A stretch of DNA of 64,000 nucleotides from an uncultured Candidatus Melainabacteria bacterium (lineage in GTDB: Bacteria > Cyanobacteriota > Vampirovibrionia > Gastranaerophilales > Gastranaerophilaceae), in contig CATLFB010000002.1 of NCBI GenBank assembly GCA_949927415.1, forward strand, positions 124,001 through 188,000. Reading direction: 5' to 3'. The position numbers were made by a program, and so were the translations under genes. Below the pieces are notes generated by a model, which made no database searches, had not been told where the DNA came from, and was given only the letters and a program-made list of their open reading frames with translations. Of the stretch, positions 51,497-64,000 are shown piece by piece (the first letter of the stretch is position 1; every line of letters begins with the position of its first letter).

Positions 51497-53410
51497 TTAT
51501 ATACTTTTAATTTTTTGTTTATAAATTTTCTTTTTTATTTTGTATCGCTGTTTTGTTTTTCCTGAAACGAAATTTAAAAAGATTTTATACTTCCAGTATT
51601 TCAGCAAATTTTTTCTGTAATCTTTGAGATTGGAAAGTGAAAAATTAATATAATTATTCTGGTTAGCCGAATTCATTCTCAATAAAATCTCTTCGTAAAA
51701 AGGTGATTTTCTGGCGTATTCCCACCAGATTTCAGAGTAGTTTTCGCTCGGACAAAACCATGGTTTTGTGGTTCCTGCAAAGTGCATAATTTTTGGATTT
51801 TTTTCATCTTTTTTATATTGTTCATAAAAAGTTTTTGGCATAAAATCCAGGATTGTTTTGTAATAAAAATTTGCTACCGGAAAGTTCCACGATGTATCTA
51901 TGTATTTAATGCCATTTTTGAAAAACGCATTAAGCCCGTCCTGCTCTAAGATTCTGAACTGGGTTTTGGATACCAAATCAAGCATTTTAGATGAAATATT
52001 ATTATCGTTAAAATATTTTATATTTATGAGCATCACTCCGGTATTAAAATATTTATAATTATCTTCTAATTTCAGCTTTTCGCACAGGTATTTTCCCCAG
52101 TTTAAGCTGTCGTTGCGGTTATTTACAAATGCTCCCATTATTAAATCTTTGCAAGCCGCAAGCGGATAATTTGTTATGTCTTCGCTGTATAAAACAGACG
52201 GATCTTTCAAAAATAACAAATCAACATCTGTAAATAATACCTTTTCGAAATTTTTTAAAATCAATGGTGAAGTCAGTCTAAAATAGCATTCAAGATTGTA
52301 GTTTGGCGGAAATTTTAAATTATATCCTTTTAAAATCGGTGTCGGATTGACAAACCTTAATGAAATATTTTCGCATTCGATTTGCTTTTTGAGAATGTTT
52401 TTGTTTCTTTCTGTGATGCTTCTTTCAAAAATTATGATGTCATAATTTTGTTCCGGATTAACAACTTTTTTCAACGATTCGAGGCATGTTGAAAGATAAG
52501 GAACATATTCATTGCTCGAACTCATTGCGATAACATTATTATTATTATCGAATGCCGGTTTTAAATCTGAGTTTGCTTCTTCGGTGTTTAAAATAAAAGA
52601 TGAATATAATTCTTTGATGCATTTTGATTTGTCTTTGTGTTTTTTGAAAGCATAGAGAGATAAAATAAATTCTCCCATATACCCCAGCACCCTTGCTGCT
52701 TTTTCAGAATAAGTGACAACATTAATCTGTTTTTTGAATTCTTCTAATATTGAAAATAAAAATTCGGAATATTCAAAAAATTCTTCCTTTTTCATAATAA
52801 ACATATTATAAAAATATCTGTAAGGTCCTTTATTTAATTCTTTTATTTCTTCAGCATACTGCGGATAAATTTGCGAAATCAATTTCATACAATTTTCGTA
52901 ATCTGACTCATTAGAACCATGACAATTTTTTACAAAATCTTCTTTTCCATTTTTGCAATTCAAATATTTTTCATTGGCTTTTTTTATAAAAATAATATCT
53001 GTGCCAAGAACGGTTTCTTTAATATGCAAGTCATCAAGACCGGTTTCAGAAAAATAATCCTCTGTAATATAATCAAACTTGAAGGCAGAATATCCATACT
53101 CGAAAGTTTTATTCTGAACTGTCGGGCTGTATTTTTCATTAAAAATAAAATGCCTTCTGTAGTGCATGAAACCAATATAATCCGGATTGCCGATTTTGTC
53201 GTAATTTTTCCATGCCCAATACTGCGCAGAAAGTTCTGCGTAATAAGGGTTTTCTGCAGAAATATTCTCGCCCGTGTCATCTCCAATCATCCCATCAAAA
53301 GCTTCCGCTGCAATCGCGCGTCCTGTCTGAATCGGTTTTATAATATCCGTTTCGATGATTTTGTGCTTGTCTTTGTATGTTACAAAAATTCTAATATCTT
53401 TCTTTTCCAT
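51497..53410 (-). CDS. DUF4422-GT8 glycosyltransferase with basic C-terminal tail
   Basis: A 637-residue cytoplasmic glycosyltransferase. Residues 1 to about 250 are a DUF4422 domain (FVTYKDKHK, GDDTGENIS, QYWAWKNYD, GFMHYRRHF). Residues 290-575 are a GT8 retaining glycosyltransferase with the metal-binding FTDVDLLFL (DxD) and FNTGVMLIN, ending near IMHFAGTTKPW. The last 45 residues form a basic tail, KYWKYKIFLNFVSGKTKQRY, shared with three neighbours. Unlike them, it has no homopolymer tract before the tail, so its tail is fixed. The donor and acceptor sugars are unknown. It is the last gene of the operon; AAAAGGAG precedes the ATG. Confidence 0.85.
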   Translation of the reverse strand: MEKKDIRIFVTYKDKHKIIETDIIKPIQTGRAIAAEAFDGMIGDDTGENISAENPYYAELSAQYWAWKNYDKIGNPDYIGFMHYRRHFIFNEKYSPTVQNKTFEYGYSAFKFDYITEDYFSETGLDDLHIKETVLGTDIIFIKKANEKYLNCKNGKEDFVKNCHGSNESDYENCMKLISQIYPQYAEEIKELNKGPYRYFYNMFIMKKEEFFEYSEFLFSILEEFKKQINVVTYSEKAARVLGYMGEFILSLYAFKKHKDKSKCIKELYSSFILNTEEANSDLKPAFDNNNNVIAMSSSNEYVPYLSTCLESLKKVVNPEQNYDIIIFERSITERNKNILKKQIECENISLRFVNPTPILKGYNLKFPPNYNLECYFRLTSPLILKNFEKVLFTDVDLLFLKDPSVLYSEDITNYPLAACKDLIMGAFVNNRNDSLNWGKYLCEKLKLEDNYKYFNTGVMLINIKYFNDNNISSKMLDLVSKTQFRILEQDGLNAFFKNGIKYIDTSWNFPVANFYYKTILDFMPKTFYEQYKKDEKNPKIMHFAGTTKPWFCPSENYSEIWWEYARKSPFYEEILLRMNSANQNNYINFSLSNLKDYRKNLLKYWKYKIFLNFVSGKTKQRYKIKKKIYKQKIKSI

Positions 53411-53508: not shown

Positions 53509-55368
53509 CTATCTTCGTCCTTTGATTTTGGCTTTGTAAATACGTTTTTTGTGATAATATCTTGTGCGGGTTTCTTTGGAACCGAAGTTTTGCAAGATTT
53601 TGTATTTCCAGTATTTGGCGTAATCGCTGATTTGACGCGTGTTTCCGGGGGGGGGGGGCATCGGTATTGCACTCATGGCCATCCTTTTCAGAATTTCTTC
53701 ATAAAAAGGTGTTTTCCGTGCATATATCCACCAATGTTCGCTTTTTTCTTTTTCCGGATTGCTCCAGGGTTTCAGAATTCCGTTGTAATGTATAATTTCA
53801 GGCGATTCTTCCGCTTTTTTTACTTCTTCTGTTGAAAAATGCGGTATGTATTTCTTGAATTCTTCATATTCCACCATGGGTGTGTAATTCCATTTGAAAT
53901 CGAGTTCTTTATAATCGTCTTCAAATACTATATTAAACGGGTCCTGATCAAGAAATTCGTAATTGTTTTTCAGTAACAAATCCTTTATTTTATCACCTTT
54001 TTCTTTTGTAAATAAATTCAGGTTGTAAACCATTATGCCGGCGTTAAAATAATCAAACAAATTTTTTATTTTTAATTTTTCTTTTAAATATTTACTTTGT
54101 TTTTTAGAAGTTACCAGGCACTGCATTATGTAATCTTTTGCCGCTGCAATCGGTTTGTCCAGAGTCATTTTGTGCAATTCAACCAAATCCGAAAGGATTA
54201 AGGTATCAGAATCTATGAATATCAAATTATTTTCTGATGTAAACAATTGCGGAATAAGCATCCTGAAATAGGTTTCGATTGTAATGTGCGGCAATACTTT
54301 GAAATTGTAGTTGAAAAAATTCATATTTATAAATTCAAGCGAGAGGTTTTCAGTGGTGTAATTTTCCAACAGAATGTTTTTATTTCTTTTTGAAATATCA
54401 CGCGTCAGAATATAAACCTTGTATTTATAAGCGCAGTTGAGGTGTTCTTTCAGTGATTCCAGCGCAGTTGAAAGGTATGGTGTATAAAAATCTGACGATG
54501 ACATTACAATGTTTATAGTGTTTGAATCGCACTTGACATGTGAGATTTCTTCAACATTTTTGAGGAATGTAATCGGCGTTTCTTTAATTTTGCATTTCTT
54601 TTCTTCGCGTTTTTTCTCTATGAAAATTGTTAACAGCCTTTCGGACAGATAACCCAGTGTTCTTATTGCGTCATTACAGTAAAGCGACATATCTATCTGT
54701 TTTTCAAGTTCCGACAAAATCGTAAATAAGAAGTTGTTATATTCAAAGAAAATCTCTTTTTTCATTACAAACATGTTATACCAGTGGTTGTATTCCAAAT
54801 CCGGTAATTTATTTATAACGCTCCGGTATTCCGGGAAGAATTTAACAACTGTTTCAAGCATTAAATCATAATCTGCGCTTTGCAAATGGCAGTTTTCCGT
54901 ATAAGCGTTTCTTGTCAAATCTTTTTTGTTTTTGAGAAACTCAATTTTTCTAAGCATTATTTTGCTGCAAACTATTATGTCATTGCCGGATACAAAATTC
55001 GCTATATCTTTGTCGTTGAGGGATATTTTGCGGACGTAATCTTCATTGAAATTTTCAAATTCTACACATCCGATAATATTAGGACTCAAGTGCTCATCGT
55101 TAAAGATGAAATGCCGTCTGTAATGCATGAATCCGACATAATCCGGATTACCGATTTTATCGTAATTTTTCCAAACCCAATATTGGGCGCTGATTTCAGA
55201 ATACTTCGGATTTTTTTCAGAAATATTCTCGCCCGTATCGTCACCAATCATCCCCTCGAAAGCTTCCGCCGCAATTGCACGACCTGTCTGAATCGGTTTT
55301 ATAATATCGGTTTCGATGATTTTGTGTTTGTCTTTGTAAGTTACAAAAATTTTAATACTATTTTCCAC
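53509..55368 (-). CDS. DUF4422-GT8 glycosyltransferase, phase-variable tail, in frame
   Basis: A 619-residue paralog of the neighbour at 51497. The first 110 residues are almost the same (TYKDKHKIIETDIIKPIQTG; GDDTGENIS). The GT8 domain has FIDSDTLIL (DxD) and FNAGIMVYN, ending IIHYNGILKPW. A run of twelve C on the coding strand (53647-53658) encodes four prolines at residues 571-574. It is followed by the shared tail, KYWKYKILQNFGSKETRTRY, to residue 619. At twelve C the tail is in frame; a change of one base would replace it. The start is GTG with AAGGAG upstream. Confidence 0.85.
   Translation of the reverse strand: MENSIKIFVTYKDKHKIIETDIIKPIQTGRAIAAEAFEGMIGDDTGENISEKNPKYSEISAQYWVWKNYDKIGNPDYVGFMHYRRHFIFNDEHLSPNIIGCVEFENFNEDYVRKISLNDKDIANFVSGNDIIVCSKIMLRKIEFLKNKKDLTRNAYTENCHLQSADYDLMLETVVKFFPEYRSVINKLPDLEYNHWYNMFVMKKEIFFEYNNFLFTILSELEKQIDMSLYCNDAIRTLGYLSERLLTIFIEKKREEKKCKIKETPITFLKNVEEISHVKCDSNTINIVMSSSDFYTPYLSTALESLKEHLNCAYKYKVYILTRDISKRNKNILLENYTTENLSLEFINMNFFNYNFKVLPHITIETYFRMLIPQLFTSENNLIFIDSDTLILSDLVELHKMTLDKPIAAAKDYIMQCLVTSKKQSKYLKEKLKIKNLFDYFNAGIMVYNLNLFTKEKGDKIKDLLLKNNYEFLDQDPFNIVFEDDYKELDFKWNYTPMVEYEEFKKYIPHFSTEEVKKAEESPEIIHYNGILKPWSNPEKEKSEHWWIYARKTPFYEEILKRMAMSAIPMPPPPGNTRQISDYAKYWKYKILQNFGSKETRTRYYHKKRIYKAKIKGRR
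53647..53658 (-). repeat. Homopolymer tract C12 (coding strand), in-frame state
   Basis: Twelve G on the plus strand inside the glycosyltransferase gene, 45 codons before its end. Tracts of this length slip readily during replication. As written, the downstream tail is in frame. Confidence 0.9.
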
Positions 55369-55448
55369 TTTTGTCTCCTTGCAAAAATTTGGTTTTAAAG
55401 CATTTTTTCAGCTATTCAACCAAATTTTTGAGGAGAATATGTGAAAAT

Positions 55449-55566
55449 CTACTTTAATAAAATTTTTGCGTTTCTTATTTTTTGTTTATAAATACGTTTT
55501 TTGCAGCGATATCTGCTTTTTGTTTTTCCTGATACAAAATTTGCTAAGAATTTGTACTTCCAATAC
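55449..55566 (-). pseudogene. Out-of-frame C-terminal tail of the GT8 gene
   Basis: This stretch continues the minus-strand GT8 gene in the shifted frame and encodes KTKSRYRCKKRIYKQKIR and a TAG at 55449-55451. It is closely related at the DNA level to the tail of the 863-residue gene (56590-56720). It is silent only because of the present tract length. Confidence 0.75.
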
Positions 55567-56577
55567 TTAAGCACATTTTTGCGATAATGTACCAAATCCC
55601 TTATCAATTCTACATTTGCGGGGGAGGGGGCACGCCGACGCCCCTTTCAGGCACATTCTACGGATAATCTCTTCGTAGAACGGAGATTTTCTCGCAATAA
55701 CCCACCATTCGGCCGCAAAATCTTCGGTCGGGTCAAACCACGGCTTTTCGCGGTCGGCAAAGTGCAAAATTTTCGGCTCTTTTACTGCCAAATATTTTGC
55801 TCTGATAAAATCTGACATGTTTTCCAGATATTTTGCATCTTTCATGTGTTTTTGCAAAGGCGGATAATTCCATTCATTCGGAAGCCAGTAACATTTGTCA
55901 TTCAACAGTTCGTTCAATGCATCCTGATCGACAATGTTGTAGTTGAAATTCGAAACCATTTCCATCAACTTTATTGAACAGTCGTGCGCATTAAAGTAGT
56001 CAATATTCATAATTATGACGCCTGCCTGAAAATATTTGTCGTGATCTTTGAGTTTCAAAGTTTCATACATATATTTCACGGCTTTTTTACCGAAAATGCC
56101 CAGAAGCGCTGACATTAAGCACTCTTCCGTTGCAGCAATCGCACAGTCTTTTATATCAATATTGAAAAGATTTTTGACATCTTCCAGAATCAACAAGTCT
56201 GAATCTAAAAACAGGATTTTGCTGTATTTTTTCATAAAAAGAGGGATTACAAGTCTGAAGTAAGTTTCGATTGTGATATGGCCGGGCGCGTAAAGATTCA
56301 AATCTTTAAAAATTTCTTTCACATTTACAAATCTGATTGAGAAATTTGGCCTGTCGCAGATTTCCGAAAGCTGGTTTTTGTTGAATTCTGACATGTCTTT
56401 TGTGAAAACAACGCAATCATAGTTATAATTATCATCGCTTTTTTCAATAATACTCTGGAGCGTAATCCCCAGATACGGCGCGAAATAATCCGATGATGCA
56501 AATGTTATCGGAATAACATTTTTGTCAAAAACAATATCTAATTCTTTGATTTTGTTTAAATTCTCTAGCTTCATCAT
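55567..56577 (-). CDS. GT8 glycosyltransferase, tail out of frame
   Basis: A GT8 enzyme without a DUF4422 domain; 336 residues as written. The catalytic part is intact: FASSDYFAPYLGITLQSI at the start, FLDSDLLIL (DxD), FQAGVIIMN and ILHFADREKPW. After RRMCLKGASACPL the reading frame crosses CCCCCTCCCCC and ends in an unrelated stretch (RKCRIDKGFG ...). In another frame the DNA encodes the family tail, YRKNVLKYWKYKFLANFV, ending at 55449. Deleting one base in the tract joins the two and yields 375 residues without a stop. The start is at 56577 or the adjacent ATG at 56574, after AGGGG. It is eight bases behind the 863-residue gene. Confidence 0.82.
   Translation of the reverse strand: MMKLENLNKIKELDIVFDKNVIPITFASSDYFAPYLGITLQSIIEKSDDNYNYDCVVFTKDMSEFNKNQLSEICDRPNFSIRFVNVKEIFKDLNLYAPGHITIETYFRLVIPLFMKKYSKILFLDSDLLILEDVKNLFNIDIKDCAIAATEECLMSALLGIFGKKAVKYMYETLKLKDHDKYFQAGVIIMNIDYFNAHDCSIKLMEMVSNFNYNIVDQDALNELLNDKCYWLPNEWNYPPLQKHMKDAKYLENMSDFIRAKYLAVKEPKILHFADREKPWFDPTEDFAAEWWVIARKSPFYEEIIRRMCLKGASACPLPRKCRIDKGFGTLSQKCA
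55620..55630 (-). repeat. Interrupted 11-base C tract (CCCCCTCCCCC), out-of-frame state
   Basis: The plus strand reads GGGGGAGGGGG. Total length is 11, like the neighbouring tracts, with one central substitution. One base less restores the tail. Confidence 0.8.
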
Positions 56578-56585
56578 GCCCCTTT

Positions 56586-59177
56586 CTAATTTATAAAATT
56601 TTTAACATTTCTGACTTTTTGCTTATACAACCGTTTTTTAAGACGATATCTGCTTTTTGTTTTTCCTGTTACGAAATTTGTTAAGATTTTGTACTTCCAA
56701 TATTTAAGCACATTCTTGCGGTAAAGTGCAACATCCCTTAATAATTCGGCATTTTTTACATTGTAATCCTCTACAACCCTTGTCATTTCTGCGATTGCTG
56801 GGGGGGGGGGCAGCGCTGATTCCTCATCCGGATTAACTTTGCCTATTATCTCATTATTAAAAGGAGATTTTCCCATGTTATCACGCAGTTCGTCCGTAAA
56901 GTATTTAACAAGATTGTTTACCTCGGTATACAAACAACTTTTATCCGGCTTTGTATTTAAAACATTTCTTATATGATTTATTTCGATTTCCCTACGGTTT
57001 AGCTTTTGCAAAGCTTCATCCGCAAGACTCATCAAAGCCTCGTTGGTCGTTCCCTGAACGTCAAGCGAAAGGTCATATTCCTGATTCAGATGATTCTTAA
57101 GCCATTGCAGCGAAAATTCTTTATTTTTGTTCAGAATACTCTCTACTTCTGCCCAGTTTATATCTTCAAAAAGGTCGTCGCGGTTATCGAGATTTTCGTC
57201 GAAATTCACAAACCTGTTTTCAAGATGAAGCATTTTGAACAACGATTCAAACCGCTCTTTGCCGCGCAAAACATTCTTCATGCAGATGAAAGGTTTGTTG
57301 AAAATTATCGCAAGGCAGCAGCCATGGAATGAATCCGCAATAAAGAGTTTGCAATTTTTGATGTAATAAAGCCAATCTTCGACGCTGATTTGGAAATTCT
57401 GGCTGATATCGATAATTTCGTTTGCCCTGTAACGTTTTTTGATATATTCCAGATGGTCTTTTTTGCCATGAAGATTGTCGAGTACGTAGTAGCAGATAAA
57501 ATCTTTTTCATCTCTTGTTGAATCCGAAATAATGTTTTCCCACAAACTTTTGTCCGGCAAAAACACCGGATCAAGAACATGCGTGGCATCGACGTCAAAT
57601 TCTTCTTTGCAAATTGTGACGCCCGAATCTTCGCGAACGGAAATTCCCTGAAATCTGTTCAACAACACTCTTACCAGCTGTTTGTTGAGATAATTTCCTT
57701 CGTATGTGTTGCAGGCAAAGCTTGCCGCATAAGCAAACTTCGGCTTGTTATAATCAGCAAACGCAAGAAAGCAGTTGTTGTCGTAATCCCTGAATTCCGG
57801 CCAATTGCGAAGTTGTTCAACGCCGTATCTCCAAACCTGGTCTGAACCGACAATAAATTTATTCACCCTGTTATTAAGTCTTTTCAAATCGGTTTTGTCA
57901 TGGCAGAGTTCAGTGAGGTTGAAATATTTTGCGGCGAATTTTTCGGAAATTCCGCCCAAATAACTTCTGTCATAGAACCATTTCGGAATCCAGTTGATTG
58001 TTTTGACTGCAAATCCGAGGCTTTTAACGGTTTCCTGAAGCGCATAGGCTGTGCACATTGCGCCGTAGTTGTTGCACCACCAGAAGTTTAAAATTGCACA
58101 GTATTTGTAGGAATTTTCGTAAGTTTCGTTGAATGATTTTTCCGGAATTTGTTTGAAAAATTCTTCACGGAAGGCATTTTCGCGGCTCGGATGAAAAAGC
58201 GGGTAATTATAATGAGTCAATTGCGAATCCATTTTTTCAAGCGACACTATGCGCGGTGAAATTTTTTCAAGGTAATCTTTGCCTTTTTGGGTGTGGGTGA
58301 AAACAACCGAAACGCCCATGTGATTGTATAATTCGGGTCTATATACATTTATACCCCAGAAATCCCCGAGGGTTATGTCAGACACTCTTTCGGGTTTTGC
58401 AAATTTGCATTCGCCGCAGGATTTGCGCAAATAAAGATTGTCCCCGAATCCGTCCATGAATTTGCTATCTTTAATCTTGTTGTCGGGTGTTGTTACGATT
58501 AAATGCGTGCAGGTCCATCCCTCTTCTTTGCTTCGAAATTCTACTTTGCAAATATTTTCATCACCGAAATTTTCTTTTAAATATTTCTGCCAGACTTTGC
58601 TGTTTGGAACCCCGTGGCAAACAACGTCGGCAGTGAAAAGCTTCTCATAATCTTTTTGCAAAAATCCGTAAAGTCCGGCAATTTGGCAGGGTGTTCCTGT
58701 GAAGAAAACAAATTTGTCATCTTCAAGAAGATTTTTAACATCGCGATAAATATTTCCGATTTTGCTTTGAATATATTTGCTTCCGCGAAGTTTTGCCAAA
58801 TCCTCTTTGTTATCGACGATTATATGTTCAACGTTCCAATCGTTATCGAACGCGGCGCCGCAAACATAGCCGCCTTTTTCCAGAATTTTTTCTGCAAGAA
58901 GCGTAAATATTCCGCCGGATGAACTTTTCATTTGAATTTCTTCATTGGCTCGTGCAGCGTAGCATTCGGCTTGTTTTTCATGGAATTTTGCATTTAAAAC
59001 AGGACAAACTTTTTTGCACATACCGCAATTTGTGCATTTTTCATGGTCAACCTGCGGATACAGAAAGCCTTCTTTATCTTCTGCCATGGTAATCGCGCCG
59101 GCAGGACAAATATTTTGGCATGATGCGCAGCCGCTGCATTGATTATATTCAATTATGTCTAGATATTTGTCGTACAA
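56586..59177 (-). CDS. Ferredoxin-FrhB/FdhB-polysaccharide pyruvyltransferase fusion with phase-variable tail
   Basis: An 863-residue multidomain protein. Residues 8-60 bind two 4Fe-4S clusters (C14, C17, C20, C24; C48, C51, C54, C58). About 70-355 is a coenzyme F420 hydrogenase/dehydrogenase beta-subunit domain (SSSGGIFTLLAE, FTGTPCQIAGL, SCGECKFAKPERVSDITLGDFWG). About 365-690 is a polysaccharide pyruvyltransferase domain (NYGAMCTAYALQETV, IVGSDQVWR, ADSFHGCCLAIIF). Eleven C (56800-56810) encode prolines at 790-793, then the shared tail KYWKYKILTNFVTGKTKSRY follows. It probably adds pyruvate or a related acid to a surface glycan with an electron-transfer step. The TTG start has GAGGAATTATC in front. 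Confidence 0.85.
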   Translation of the reverse strand: MYDKYLDIIEYNQCSGCASCQNICPAGAITMAEDKEGFLYPQVDHEKCTNCGMCKKVCPVLNAKFHEKQAECYAARANEEIQMKSSSGGIFTLLAEKILEKGGYVCGAAFDNDWNVEHIIVDNKEDLAKLRGSKYIQSKIGNIYRDVKNLLEDDKFVFFTGTPCQIAGLYGFLQKDYEKLFTADVVCHGVPNSKVWQKYLKENFGDENICKVEFRSKEEGWTCTHLIVTTPDNKIKDSKFMDGFGDNLYLRKSCGECKFAKPERVSDITLGDFWGINVYRPELYNHMGVSVVFTHTQKGKDYLEKISPRIVSLEKMDSQLTHYNYPLFHPSRENAFREEFFKQIPEKSFNETYENSYKYCAILNFWWCNNYGAMCTAYALQETVKSLGFAVKTINWIPKWFYDRSYLGGISEKFAAKYFNLTELCHDKTDLKRLNNRVNKFIVGSDQVWRYGVEQLRNWPEFRDYDNNCFLAFADYNKPKFAYAASFACNTYEGNYLNKQLVRVLLNRFQGISVREDSGVTICKEEFDVDATHVLDPVFLPDKSLWENIISDSTRDEKDFICYYVLDNLHGKKDHLEYIKKRYRANEIIDISQNFQISVEDWLYYIKNCKLFIADSFHGCCLAIIFNKPFICMKNVLRGKERFESLFKMLHLENRFVNFDENLDNRDDLFEDINWAEVESILNKNKEFSLQWLKNHLNQEYDLSLDVQGTTNEALMSLADEALQKLNRREIEINHIRNVLNTKPDKSCLYTEVNNLVKYFTDELRDNMGKSPFNNEIIGKVNPDEESALPPPPAIAEMTRVVEDYNVKNAELLRDVALYRKNVLKYWKYKILTNFVTGKTKSRYRLKKRLYKQKVRNVKNFIN
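56800..56810 (-). repeat. Homopolymer tract C11 (coding strand), in-frame state
   Basis: Eleven G on the plus strand, read as CTG followed by CCC CCC CCC CCA. It is 70 codons before the end of the gene; the tail is in frame as written. Confidence 0.9.
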
Positions 59178-59228
59178 GATAATTCCTCCAGCGGATTAAT
59201 TCCGTTTTCTATAAAATATGACGGTGAT

Positions 59229-59912
59229 TTACGCGACCAATTGATGCCGGTTTTCTTCACCACAGCCGGGACGCCTGCAATAAGAAAGCCCCCCCCCCCT
59301 TGACTGAAATGCCCTTGTTACAAGGCTTTTAGCGCCAACAATGGAGTTTTCCGGAATGATTGCGTTTTTTAAAATCAGACAGCTTTCGCCTATCCAACAG
59401 TGATTTTGGATTTGAACCTGAGACGTTCTGGCGTTTTGAATTTGTTGAGTGTTGATATCAAAGACGGCGTGTCCGTCAGCGCCTCTTATGGTTGTAAAAC
59501 CTGCGAACATGCAGTCTTCTCCGATTAGAACATCGGATTCTTCAACCAGCATTATGTTGCAGTTATGCATTGTTGTATTTTTTCCGATAGTAAGCTTTTG
59601 ATTTTTTCCGTAAAATGCAAAAATTTTGTTTTTTGTAAAATTTGTCGTGGAGCCTATTTCAACATACGCACCATCGTTATGTATTTCGGGATAATTGCCG
59701 ATTTTTATTATGGAACCTTCTGAACAAAACGGCTTAAAGATTCTTACAATATTGTTTGACCCGTATATTTCAATACTCAGCCCTTCAATTTTTTCATCTG
59801 GCTGTAATTCTCTTTCGCAGCCATTTTCTTCCACAACTATAATTCTGTTGTTGGCGCCTTTTATATCGTAGGGCTTAGTGCGCTTTTTCATAAATCTTTT
59901 TAACAGTGACAT
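59229..59912 (-). CDS. Hexapeptide-repeat acetyltransferase, frameshifted at a G11 tract
   Basis: A left-handed beta-helix acyltransferase that O- or N-acetylates sugars. The hexapeptide ladder runs from about IKIGNYPEIHNDGAYVEIGS to IGESCLILKNAIIPENSIVGAKSLVTRAF, with the catalytic region near HNCNIML and GADGHAVFD. As written, the chain then enters RGGGLSYCRRPGC and stops at 59229. In another frame the DNA reads FLIAGVPAVVKKTGINWSRK, the normal end of this family. Ten instead of eleven G would restore it, giving 250 residues and a stop at 59159 that overlaps the next gene's start. The start is the ATG at 59912 (GGAGAAG upstream), overlapping the flavoprotein gene by 13 bases. Confidence 0.82.
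   Translation of the reverse strand: MSLLKRFMKKRTKPYDIKGANNRIIVVEENGCERELQPDEKIEGLSIEIYGSNNIVRIFKPFCSEGSIIKIGNYPEIHNDGAYVEIGSTTNFTKNKIFAFYGKNQKLTIGKNTTMHNCNIMLVEESDVLIGEDCMFAGFTTIRGADGHAVFDINTQQIQNARTSQVQIQNHCWIGESCLILKNAIIPENSIVGAKSLVTRAFQSRGGGLSYCRRPGCGEENRHQLVA
59289..59299 (-). repeat. Homopolymer tract G11 (coding strand), out-of-frame state
   Basis: Eleven C on the plus strand, at the junction between the beta-helix and the C-terminal AGVPA segment of the acetyltransferase. One base less restores the family C-terminus. Confidence 0.9.
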
Positions 59913-61183
59913 ATCTTCTCCATAGCTATTTTCATTCCGTCTGCAAACGCCTGATGCGTCCACATGTATTCCCATTTGCCAAATCGGCCGATGCTTTCTA
60001 TTCCGACAGATTCGAGATAATCTAAAACAATCTCGCGGTTTTTGTAAATGTTTTTGTCAAAAATTACATTCGCATACTTTTCAAATCGAATATCTTTTAC
60101 GACAATTTCGTCTTCTGTGAAAAGCCCCATTGCGGTTAACTTTTCAATCGTGTTTTTCAAAACAGCATCAGCCTCAGGAATTTCAGCCCTGTTTGAGAAG
60201 AAAATTTCTGCCTGAAGCGAACTGCAGCCTTCCGGTACATTATCAGGAGACTTCAAACTTGGTGAATATACGCGGCTTGAGAGGATATCTTCATCATAAA
60301 TATAGAACCACAGATGTTTTGCGACATCAGGCCTTTTAAATCCAAGTGAGACCATATATCCGGAGGTGTGCATCAAATTTTCGCCCGCGCGCTTGATATC
60401 AAGCGGAATTCCGTCAATCATTTTCACGATTTCAGGCAGCGGAAGAGTCGAAATCAGGCGTGAATATTTGGTTTCGGTGCCGTCTTTAAATGTTACAGTT
60501 TTGGCTGTCGGATTGATTTTCACGGCTTCTTTGTTGAATCTGATATCCAGATCTTCGCGGCAGTCGTTCAGAATCGAGCGGAAACCGCCTTTTTTCGGGT
60601 ATTTCATGTGCGAAGTGTAGTAGAAATTTTTGTCCTGAACTTCGAAGGCGCCTTTCAGAACCTCATCCAAATCGGGTTTGTGCATTCTGTTTCCGACCCA
60701 TTTTGTCTCAAGTTCTTTCGGCTCCACTCCCCAGTATTTGCGCGTGTAGCGGAAGGGAAAATTCTCTGCAAAATAATCGCCGTATTGTACTCTAAGCCAG
60801 TCTTCGTAGTTTTCGAGTTCTTCAAACGGTTTTTTCGGACGGTTGATGAAGCCTTTTATGATTTCTACTTTTTCATCCGCCGGCAAAGGCGCAAGATTGT
60901 TTTGCGCAGGGTGTTTCAGCCAGAATCCTTTGTAGAAGTTGCTTGAAACACTGGGGTGCGCAAATGTGGGTGACGATTTTTCGAAGATATTTCTGATGTA
61001 ATCGTCGGGGGCGAAGGTGAAGTGAACAAACTTGTCAAAACGAAAGCCGTTTATGGTGAAGTTTGCGCACAATCCGCCCCAATCGCCGTTACGTTCATAG
61101 ATTACGGGTTTTTCGCCATTTTTTTCAAGATGATAGCCCGCAGAAATCCCTGCTATTCCGCTTCCTAAAATTACAGTTTCCAT
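59900..61183 (-). CDS. FAD-dependent oxidoreductase, UDP-galactopyranose mutase/protoporphyrinogen oxidase-like
   Basis: A flavoprotein of 427 residues. The dinucleotide-binding motif VILGSGIAGISAGYHLEKNG opens the chain, followed by ERNGDWGGLCANF and, at the C-terminus, SIGRFGKWEYMWTHQAFADGMKIA, which closes the FAD site. The general layout is shared by UDP-galactopyranose mutases and amine oxidases. In the glycan operon a sugar-nucleotide mutase or oxidase is the likely role, but the substrate cannot be read from the sequence. It is 16 bases downstream of the CDP-glucose dehydratase gene and overlaps the acetyltransferase gene. Confidence 0.8.
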   Translation of the reverse strand: METVILGSGIAGISAGYHLEKNGEKPVIYERNGDWGGLCANFTINGFRFDKFVHFTFAPDDYIRNIFEKSSPTFAHPSVSSNFYKGFWLKHPAQNNLAPLPADEKVEIIKGFINRPKKPFEELENYEDWLRVQYGDYFAENFPFRYTRKYWGVEPKELETKWVGNRMHKPDLDEVLKGAFEVQDKNFYYTSHMKYPKKGGFRSILNDCREDLDIRFNKEAVKINPTAKTVTFKDGTETKYSRLISTLPLPEIVKMIDGIPLDIKRAGENLMHTSGYMVSLGFKRPDVAKHLWFYIYDEDILSSRVYSPSLKSPDNVPEGCSSLQAEIFFSNRAEIPEADAVLKNTIEKLTAMGLFTEDEIVVKDIRFEKYANVIFDKNIYKNREIVLDYLESVGIESIGRFGKWEYMWTHQAFADGMKIAMEKICHC

Positions 61184-61199
61184 AGCTTCTCCGATAATT

Positions 61200-62324
61200 T
61201 TATTTCGCAGCTAATGCAGGAGTTTTCTCTGAAGTTTCCCAAAGGTAGCCTTTGTCTGTGTGAGCTTGAATTTGTTTTTTGCAATATTCGAACATATCGT
61301 CGTTGTGGAGCGCTTCTTTGTACCAATCTACAGTGAATTCGATTGCTTCGTAGAATGAAAGCTGGGCTTTCCAATCGAGCATTCTGTAAGCTTTTGTGAC
61401 ATCCAGGCTCAGAAGAGTATTTTCATGAACCATATTCGGGCTTGAAGCGTCAACTACTTTACCTTGACCGTAGTATTTAACGAGATATTCAACAACATCC
61501 CAAACGGTTTTGTTGCACTCAATCGGAGGGCCGAAGTTGAATCCTTCCGAGTATTTTACCGGCTCTTCCATAAGTTTTTGGCCGACACGAAGATATCCGC
61601 TCAAAGGTTCAAGAACATGTTCCCACGGACGGGTTGCTTTCGGGCTTCTGATTTCGATATCTTTGCCTTCTTCGATGAATCTTATGCAGTCCGGAATAAG
61701 TCTGTTATCAGACCAATCGCCGCCGCCGATTACGTTTCCGGCACGGACTGATGCGATTGCTTTTCCGTGTTTTGCGTAGTCTTTTGTGTTGAAGTATGAA
61801 TTTCTGTATGAAGAAATCAACAATTCAGCGCAGCCTTTTGAAGATGAATACGGGTCATAACCGCCCATTCTGTCGGTTTCTTTGTAGCCCCAGATTTGTT
61901 CAACGTTTTCGTAGCATTTGTCTGATGTAATCATTACGACTGTTTTTATGCAATCGAATTTTCTGACTGCTTCAAGAACGTTCAATGAACCCATTACGTT
62001 TGTTTCGTAAGTGAATTTCGGATTGTCATAAGCTGTTCTGACGAGAGCTTGAGCTGCTAAGTGGAAAACTACTTCCGGCTGATATTTGCGGATTGTTTCT
62101 TCCAATTTTTCGCTGTCGCGCACGTCTCCTTTAACATCTGCAAACAAATGTTTTTCAAGGTGAGATGCTTTGTAGTTGCCGCGCTGTGAATACGGTTCCA
62201 ACGCATATCCGACAACGTTTGCGCCAAGCATTGTAAGCCAGATTGAAAGCCAGCTTCCTTTAAAACCGGTGTGGCCTGTAACTAAAACTGTTTTGCCTTT
62301 GTATACGTTATTAAAATTAGACAT
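61200..62324 (-). CDS. rfbG: CDP-glucose 4,6-dehydratase
   Basis: A short-chain dehydrogenase of 374 residues that converts CDP-glucose to CDP-4-keto-6-deoxyglucose with bound NAD. The nucleotide loop is TGHTGFKGSWLSIWL, a phrase typical of RfbG. The catalytic Tyr-Lys pair is in YDPYSSSKGCAE, and MITSDKCYEN supplies the catalytic Ser/Thr-Asp region. The SVRAGNVIGGGDWSDNRLIPD segment is another family signature. It overlaps the upstream epimerase gene by eight bases and follows rfbF in pathway order. Confidence 0.93.
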   Translation of the reverse strand: MSNFNNVYKGKTVLVTGHTGFKGSWLSIWLTMLGANVVGYALEPYSQRGNYKASHLEKHLFADVKGDVRDSEKLEETIRKYQPEVVFHLAAQALVRTAYDNPKFTYETNVMGSLNVLEAVRKFDCIKTVVMITSDKCYENVEQIWGYKETDRMGGYDPYSSSKGCAELLISSYRNSYFNTKDYAKHGKAIASVRAGNVIGGGDWSDNRLIPDCIRFIEEGKDIEIRSPKATRPWEHVLEPLSGYLRVGQKLMEEPVKYSEGFNFGPPIECNKTVWDVVEYLVKYYGQGKVVDASSPNMVHENTLLSLDVTKAYRMLDWKAQLSFYEAIEFTVDWYKEALHNDDMFEYCKKQIQAHTDKGYLWETSEKTPALAAK

Positions 62325-63234
62325 TCAATAATTCTCCCTTATTTTGTTCTTTCCACCAATCTATTGTTTCTTTCAGGCCTTCTTCCAGTGAATATTTTTG
62401 GCTCCAGCCGGTTTGTTTCAATTTTTCGTTATTGCCCACGACAACTTCATCGCCGAACGCTGCGGGAATTGCACCATAGAGGATGTTTCCTTTGAAGTTT
62501 GTAAGTTCTGCGATTTTTTCAACGATAACTCTCAGTTGAACAGGTTTGCCCGAGCAAATATTTACAGCACCGGAAACGTCGCTTTCGAAAACATCGACAA
62601 TTCCGCAGGCAGTATCTTTTACGTGCAAATAATCCTGAAATTTCAGGCAGTCGCTAACCTTCACATCTTCACCTTTCAAGCATGAGTTGATAACAGAAGG
62701 CATCAATCTTTGTGATTTTTCGGCAGGTCCGTAAAGGTTGAAAATTCTCGGCCATTTGAATTCGATTCCGTTTTGTTTGCAGTAAACAGACGCGATTTTG
62801 TAAATGCTGTTTTTGCTTTCGCCGTATAATGTTTTCGGGCTGGTCGGAGTTTCATCTTCCAAAAGATAGCCGTATTTGTATTCGTATTCTGAAATTGTGC
62901 CGGCGCCTGTGAATCTTTTGCCGCCGTTTTCTTTGAAGTTTTTCAGCAAATTCAAAGTCGCAAGCGTCCAGTCTAAGTTCAAATCATGCACGTGGCATTT
63001 TGGTCCCACATACCATGCAAGATGTATCAGATTTTCGAATTTGTGTTCTTTTAAAAACTTATTTACGGATTCAGTATCCATAAGATTCATTTCATATTGC
63101 ACAAGTCCTTCTTTTTCCGGTGCAAAAGGCGGGTATACAAGCGAATGAACTTCATAGCCTCTTTTGATTAATTCATCGACCACGTTTCTGCCGATGAAAC
63201 CTGTTCCGCCTGTAATGAGAACTTTTTTATCCAT
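62317..63234 (-). CDS. NAD-dependent sugar epimerase/reductase
   Basis: An extended short-chain dehydrogenase of 305 residues with GGTGFIGRNVVDEL and the active-site pair YGESKNSI. Its place between the glucose-1-phosphate cytidylyltransferase and CDP-glucose dehydratase genes suggests that it acts on CDP-4-keto-6-deoxyglucose or a product of it, like CDP-abequose or CDP-paratose synthases. The exact stereochemistry cannot be deduced. The dideoxy-forming dehydratase RfbH is not in the window. It ends in an eight-base overlap with rfbG and begins one base after rfbF. Confidence 0.82.
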   Translation of the reverse strand: MDKKVLITGGTGFIGRNVVDELIKRGYEVHSLVYPPFAPEKEGLVQYEMNLMDTESVNKFLKEHKFENLIHLAWYVGPKCHVHDLNLDWTLATLNLLKNFKENGGKRFTGAGTISEYEYKYGYLLEDETPTSPKTLYGESKNSIYKIASVYCKQNGIEFKWPRIFNLYGPAEKSQRLMPSVINSCLKGEDVKVSDCLKFQDYLHVKDTACGIVDVFESDVSGAVNICSGKPVQLRVIVEKIAELTNFKGNILYGAIPAAFGDEVVVGNNEKLKQTGWSQKYSLEEGLKETIDWWKEQNKGELLNV

Positions 63235-63235
63235 T

Positions 63236-64000
63236 TTATACCTTTCCTGCCAAGCTTACGTATGCATTCTGTTTTTCCCAAACTTTCCACGGTGCATCTC
63301 CGGATTCCCACATTTCGTCAAGTTCGATTTTGTCTCTCAATGTGTCCATCGGACGCCAGAATCCGTGGTGTTTGTATGCAACAAGTCCGCCATGGTTTGC
63401 GATTGTTTCAAGTGGTCTTCTTTCAAAGATTTCTTTGTCGTTGCCGGCTTCGATGTAGTTCATAACTTCCGGTTCGCAAACGAAGAATCCGCCGTTAATC
63501 CATGCGCCGTCACCTTTTGGTTTTTCCTGGAATGAAGTGATTGTTCCGTCCTGTGCAATATTCAGCGCGCCAAAACGGCCTGATGGCTGAACTGATGTCA
63601 TTGTCATGATTTTGCCGGATTTTTTGTGGAAGTTTACAAGATCTGTAATGTTTACATTCGAAACGCCGTCGCCGTATGTGAGAAGGAATGGTTCGTTGCC
63701 GATATATTCCTGTGCTTTTTTAATTCGGGCACCGGTCATAGCATTCTGGCCCGTATAAAGCATTGTAACTTTCCATGGTTCCGTGCGCATTTTGTGAAGT
63801 TCGATTGTGTTGTAGCGCATATCAATTGTCAAATCAGAATATCTCTGATAATAGTGCACAAAATAATCTTTAATAATATGAGATTTGTACCCTGTGAGGA
63901 TAACGAAATCGTTAAATCCGTAATGAGAATAAATCTTCATAATATGCCAGAGGATTGGATAGCCTCCGATTTCGACCATAGGTTTCGGTTTTGAAACAGT
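63236..64000 (-). CDS. rfbF: Glucose-1-phosphate cytidylyltransferase, 5' end outside window
   Basis: The enzyme makes CDP-glucose from glucose-1-phosphate and CTP, the first step of the CDP-deoxysugar branch. The frame is open to the window end, reading TVSKPKPMVEIGGYPILWHI, which corresponds to about residue 18 onward. The N-terminal GGxGTR loop is therefore outside, and the internal ATG at 63979 is not the start. LTYGDGVSNVN holds the metal-binding aspartate, and FQEKPKGDGAWINGGFFV and YKHHGFWRPMDT are family hallmarks. It probably heads or continues an operon that extends upstream. Confidence 0.95.
   Translation of the reverse strand, partial: TVSKPKPMVEIGGYPILWHIMKIYSHYGFNDFVILTGYKSHIIKDYFVHYYQRYSDLTIDMRYNTIELHKMRTEPWKVTMLYTGQNAMTGARIKKAQEYIGNEPFLLTYGDGVSNVNITDLVNFHKKSGKIMTMTSVQPSGRFGALNIAQDGTITSFQEKPKGDGAWINGGFFVCEPEVMNYIEAGNDKEIFERRPLETIANHGGLVAYKHHGFWRPMDTLRDKIELDEMWESGDAPWKVWEKQNAYVSLAGKV

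Follow-up and report, generated by a model that had tools for sequence, protein, structure and literature searches.

The window, a stretch of 64 kb, contains a run of nine genes that extends on a single strand (-) from position 63979 down to 51497, with intergenic gaps of -76 to 198 bases. Given this shared orientation and spacing, the nine genes likely constitute an operon. The promoter-proximal end of the run holds NAD-dependent epimerase-like and RfbF-like nucleotidyltransferase genes (62317..63979), named from sequence only, followed by a sugar-nucleotide dehydratase gene resembling RfbG (61200..62324), likewise named from sequence and with relatives found, and by an FAD amine-oxidase-like gene identified with Pfam (59900..61183). 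Next come a hexapeptide acyltransferase-like gene (59159..59912; Pfam match on 59229-59975), a fusion of an Fe-S/FrhB_FdhB part with a polysaccharide pyruvyl transferase (56586..59177; Pfam; 863 aa), and two glycosyltransferase genes, GT2 with a GT8 domain (55449..56577) and GT1 with DUF4422 and GT8 (53509..55368; Pfam; 619 aa). The last gene (51497..53410) is a DUF4422 and GT8 paralogue of GT1.

Four of these genes carry a G/C tract, all read on the minus strand. Tract 1 (53647..53658), C12 on the coding strand and G12 on the plus strand, falls in the part of GT1 that links the GT8 domain to a basic C-terminal tail, and is in frame as assembled. Tract 2 (55620..55630) occupies the same linker position in GT2 and is not a homopolymer, reading GGGGGAGGGGG (G5AG5 on the plus strand, C5TC5 on the coding strand); it has one base too many for the tail, and GT2 as assembled ends after 336 aa (55567-56577). 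Tract 3 (56800..56810), C11 on the coding strand and G11 on the plus strand, is in frame and lies in the pyruvyl-transferase fusion, in the linker that precedes its tail. Tract 4 (59289..59299), G11 on the coding strand and C11 on the plus strand, is located near the end of the hexapeptide-repeat transferase and has one base too many.

Direct counts bore out the positions and lengths of the four tracts given in the preliminary description, as well as their uniqueness, no other G/C run of at least 7 bases being present in the 64 kb. Three runs of at least 11 bases were observed where a first-order Markov model of the window predicts 0.002. The frame assignments also stand: the genes with tracts at 53647 and 56800 are open for 619 and 863 aa, and in the two out-of-frame genes removal of a single base opens 375 aa (1128 nt including the stop) ending in the tail for the tract at 55620 and 271 aa for that at 59289, or 250 aa (753 nt) when counted from the start at 59912. 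The 753-nt acyltransferase product exists only with that base removed. The claim that all four tracts are prone to slippage holds for the three homopolymers, which are long enough to slip and exceed chance expectation as contingency loci do, and fails for the interrupted C5TC5 at 55620.

The C-terminal tail of the glycan genes

According to Pfam domain limits, the tract in each of the three glycosyltransferase-type genes is C-terminal to the last catalytic domain. The GT8 domain of GT1 ends at residue 537 and its tract is at residue 570; in the fusion, the pyruvyl transferase ends at residue 634 and the tract is at residue 789. Directly behind the tract the three genes share a basic tail, roughly YRKNxLKYWKYKIxxNFxxGKTKxRYxxKKRxYKxKI. 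The neighbouring paralogue of GT1 has the same tail without a tract and represents a stable, in-frame version of GT1. In the predicted structure of this paralogue (mean pLDDT 88), the GT8 domain is joined by a low-confidence linker (296-305) to helices 311-325 and 331-349, in the numbering of the modelled part.

The restored C-termini had been called typical of their family, and tract-free homologues in other genomes of the family do encode this linker and this tail in one continuous frame. Short, in-frame codons in homologous genomes had been named beforehand as evidence against phase variation. Several homologues have them, and they do not refute it, because homologues with and without tracts coexist in the Campylobacter phasome (PMC6321876).

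Since the tract lies behind the catalytic domains and in a flexible linker, a slip would change or remove the tail and leave the enzyme domain in place, which would amount to a swap rather than to an off-switch of the enzyme. The tail is basic and amphipathic-looking, suggesting that it probably attaches the enzyme to the membrane. Slippage in the three glycan genes would in that case remove or restore a membrane attachment, modulating the enzyme instead of abolishing it, and in the acyltransferase the tract would determine whether the protein's final portion is produced. The 16 genotype states of a surface glycan proposed earlier are consequently unsupported: with the tract at 55620 interrupted, no more than three tracts can slip, giving at most 8 states, and in three of the genes the predicted change is loss or exchange of a tail, with the glycosyltransferase or pyruvyl-transferase domain remaining intact.

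Poly-G phase variation is known for lgtC of Neisseria. LgtC (1g9r) matches the profile of the window glycosyltransferases (E 7e-37), which resemble it and the phase-variable LOS glycosyltransferases of Neisseria in belonging to the GT8 fold family, and differ from them in having the run between the catalytic domain and the C-terminal tail. We know of no tract in WbbM, whose likeness to the window enzymes is in the GT8 part. WbbM (6u4b) is the best solved relative of that part (E 1e-57), in a match that excludes the tail.

Tracts in prepilin-like genes

The genome that contains the window (2.18 Mb in 22 contigs) is closest to genomes mostly assembled from metagenomes and assigned to Candidatus Gastranaerophilales. 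It has 64 G/C tracts of at least 9 bases, where about 1.9 are expected, and their modal length is 12. We read in detail the stretches around tracts and prepilins. Most tracts are behind a ribosome-binding site and a start codon, in leaders such as MKKQTMTEFQGGG. About 45 of them lie 7-13 codons past the start of prepilin-like genes (leaders counted by eye), and one shifted frame past a tract continues into AFTLAEVLITLGIIGIVAAMTLPALI, which is prepilin-like. With most tracts in genes of this kind, confining the system to one glycan operon, as the preliminary description did, was too narrow.

Prepilins are recognised by a motif for cleavage and methylation ahead of a hydrophobic helix, and models of it matched proteins of these tract genes. 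The N_methyl model scored above its cut-off in two of three proteins tested (the third reached 20.5 against a cut-off of 21.2), and TIGR02532 did so in both of two. Within the stretches read, the motif was found in an open frame in 39 tract leaders; prepilin-like matches in the genome total 82. Tract-free prepilins have ordinary in-frame starts wherever a start can be placed. A contig end lies no more than 250 bases away from 9 of the 64 tracts, and in G086, a genome of another genus, assembler Ns occur inside tracts; both are expected, because such sites assemble badly.

A hairpin likely hides the ribosome-binding site in these leaders. The predicted accessibility of the site is 0.30, compared with 0.46 when the downstream sequence is shuffled, and tract length has a small effect on the predicted hairpin. 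Complementarity of the downstream sequence to the ribosome-binding site is greater within genes than between genes in the genus of the window genome (permutation p < 2e-4); the same comparison was not significant in G034 and G053, two genomes of other genera.

Two other accounts of the leaders were discarded. Their contexts looked repeat-like at first, as for a dispersed mobile element, but the shared flanks are coding sequence for the leader peptide and are wholly different between genera. Internal start codons behind the tract have no ribosome-binding site in the majority of this genome's genes, and have one in part of G003. A search of viral contigs for the leader pattern gave no match.

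Several smaller observations concern individual leaders. At about 12-20 bases past the G run, leaders in L068-L116 and L117-L176 carry GCTCCT, CTCCTT or TCTCCTTT, complementary to their own ribosome-binding site, with variation matched within the genus. The spacers between tract and cleavage site in L131 (G003), L246 (G034), and L081 and L083 (window genome) often carry repeated peptides (CHSELDSESIN.., EGATHVDICTNV, FTLAEGATHVETSAKK) that look like in-frame insertions of palindromic or minisatellite elements into the leader, a part that is cleaved off. A prepilin-like gene of the window genome (L069, 4002) has a G11 tract after the differing leader MTETLILPRKSLR, 11 codons before the cleavage motif. 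The longest run seen in this genome, C18 (L079, 10036), is outside any long reading frame.

Spread and targets of tracts in related genomes

Poly-G tracts appear to be a trait of the whole family, a group of uncultured gut bacteria related to cyanobacteria, and reach 176 runs in one genome. Runs of at least 10 bases are present in 93 of 117 genomes and 36 of 41 genera of the family. In a sample of the class, 39 of the 52 family genomes (75%) have at least 10 tracts (median 41, that same maximum of 176), and 8 of 95 genomes from other families reach this number (median 1).

Judged from their sequences, the tract genes of the window genome and its relatives have mainly surface and restriction-modification functions, comprising prepilins, glycosyltransferases, acyltransferases and DNA methyltransferases; these are the target classes of known phasomes. 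Among those of the relatives are two Acyl_transf_3 genes, one with a prepilin-type leader, and a glycosyltransferase of G053, named from sequence. A locus of G006 (L163, 1999-10031) holds three tandem and very similar copies of an N6_N4-type DNA methyltransferase with G12, G10 and G9 at the same place, together with a C5 methyltransferase with G10, and possibly represents a phase-variable methylation cluster. A second glycan locus (L027), in another genus of the family, lies beside an rfbG homologue and has three tracts. Two are associated with family 2 glycosyltransferase genes, one lying inside and the other near the end, and the third is just behind a tail of the same type in a GT8-like gene. 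L345 of G014 apparently represents this locus too.

Reading frames and probable slipped-strand phase variation

All 39 readable prepilin tracts of the window genome are out of frame, 36 by one extra base and 3 by one missing base. Seven genomes of the genus gave 96 prepilin tracts, of which 81 have one base too many, 10 one too few, and 5 are in frame (91 of 96 out of frame). Genomes of other genera revealed different distributions: 17 one too few and 5 in frame in G034 (n = 22); 12 one too many, 2 one too few and 2 in frame in G053; 16 one too few, 2 one too many and 1 in frame in G056 (n = 19); and 6 one too many, 1 one too few and 4 in frame in G086 (tracts free of Ns, counted by eye). Over the five genera, 147 of 164 prepilin tracts are out of frame (p = 7e-12, a value not to be taken literally because the copies are related). 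Chance predicts two thirds out of frame, and the shares in G086 and in G034, each taken alone, are not significantly different from this value. The offset is conserved within the genus and not across genera; since its direction differs between genera, the rule common to most of them is "mostly OFF" rather than a fixed offset. Four short or interrupted runs were also noted in prepilin leaders of the window genome (L207, L210, L221, L223), one in frame and three with one base too many in the absence of a slippable run.

We consider it probable that the tracts are contingency loci subject to slipped-strand phase variation. Mispairing at G/C runs of about 10-13 bases would reversibly change the frame of surface genes, mainly that of the approximately 45 prepilin-like genes. 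Because the run is just behind the ribosome-binding site and start codon, a slip would turn the whole prepilin on or off, and the assembled state, presumably that of the majority of cells, would be OFF for nearly all of them. Changes of one base introduced in silico alter the product accordingly, switching the prepilin on or off, or exchanging the tail or C-terminus in the window genes. This explanation is favoured by the excess of runs, their placement, the target classes, the second glycan locus, the spread in the family, the mostly out-of-frame prepilin tracts beside tract-free prepilins with ordinary starts, the one-base length differences between similar copies in relatives, the assembly breaks and the precedent of Bifidobacterium breve. 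Taking the tracts, their excess over chance, their frames, their placement and their spread in the family as observed, we infer switching within clones and a majority of OFF cells. The gut bacteria of this lineage thus probably hold a large slipped-strand repertoire, mostly OFF, and switch many surface genes randomly. Phase variation of several genes, proposed from the window alone, remains the best explanation, shorn of its state count and of its restriction to the operon.

Two observations do not sit easily with fast, random switching. In the window genome only 1 of 16 nearest pairs differs in tract length, although the flanks of these pairs differ by 316 substitutions, and the genome contains a MutS gene; conserved lengths and MutS speak against a very fast switch in this species. 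Length differs in 23 of 47 pairs across the genus and in 0 of 8 in G056, and several relatives show single-base differences between similar copies, such as G13 and G12 with 1 flank substitution. Furthermore, the fixed one-too-many offset of the genus (81 versus 10), which holds even over different phase arrangements, is not predicted by random switching.

The same offset is what recoding would explain, that is, RNA polymerase slippage or a +1 ribosome shift at GGGG/CCCC that sets a low expression while the DNA tract is no switch. Within the genus the one-too-many state recurs over different phase arrangements (31 of 46 outside the dominant arrangement), is found whether a tract is of the C or the G type, persists through edge substitutions that do not alter the total, and is kept over one compensated indel (G008 L152 versus G006 L157); three of the four short or interrupted tracts of the window genome share it, and lengths hardly vary in that genome. 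However, one base too few is usual in G034 and G056 and the state is mixed in G086, so that no single direction fits, and recoding as a family-wide programme is rejected on account of this change between genera. In-frame tract genes also exist within the genus (5 of 96), and tract genes other than prepilins, two of them in the window, are partly in frame. We retain recoding as the main rival within the genus, where the fixed offset leaves room for correction at the RNA level, and regard it as unlikely. Less probable again is a joint arrangement in which the one-too-many state of the genus would be a selected default, one slip away from ON. Correction at the RNA level, by RNA polymerase slippage or +1 frameshifting at GGGG/CCCC, would then provide a low basal level, and expression would be set by recoding and DNA slippage together at the same run.

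It is very improbable that frameshifts have left the glycan and prepilin genes as fixed pseudogenes or that the tract lengths are assembly errors. All data are consensus assemblies, and some tract genes have further stops or truncations; against this, frames are open on both sides of the tract, protein motifs are conserved over many genes and species, the run is held at 10-13 bases far above chance, and the window tails are intact in the alternative frame. Slightest of all is the likelihood that silent prepilin cassettes recombine into an expression site, as in pilS/pilE of Neisseria, and that the G run acts in recombination or forms a G-quadruplex: the many paralogues, nearly all silent, with conserved N-terminus, variable C-terminal part and a G-rich element at the 5' end would suit such a system, but every copy retains a start codon and a ribosome-binding site of its own, methyltransferase, acyltransferase and glycan genes also carry such runs, and no expression site was recognised.

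Proteobacteria, Campylobacterota and a few other groups supply most of the known examples of poly-G phase variation. The kind of mechanism favoured here, slipped-strand phase variation, is familiar; new to us are the organism and the scale, together with a prepilin repertoire that is mostly OFF and a position in glycan genes that would swap the tail. Searches of the open-licence literature returned nothing on phase variation in Gastranaerophilales or on phase-variable genes in Vampirovibrionia, which is weak evidence given that most subscription papers and preprints fall outside its scope, and for Melainabacteria they yielded only a flagellin survey. If phase variation is confirmed, these gut bacteria would vary pili, glycans and perhaps DNA methylation stochastically, and the broken-looking prepilin genes in their assemblies would be accounted for.

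Two known systems provide the closest comparisons. In B. breve a G11/G12 tract switches sortase-pilus genes, the run splitting a pilin gene into two frames, and replication slippage was measured (PMC9187656). The present case likewise concerns a gut commensal with a G run in a pilin gene, and differs in involving about 45 type IV prepilin-like genes, known from assembled sequence, instead of two loci of sortase pili with measured slippage. Genomes of C. jejuni have 18-39 phase-variable genes, mostly poly-G/C, as determined with PhasomeIt (PMC6321876). The likeness to Campylobacter extends to G/C runs within coding genes for surface structures and related functions, a narrow length mode, and homologues with and without runs. 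Unlike Campylobacter, the window genome belongs to an unrelated phylum, its main targets are prepilin-like and mostly OFF with the run in the leader, and the modal run length is 12.
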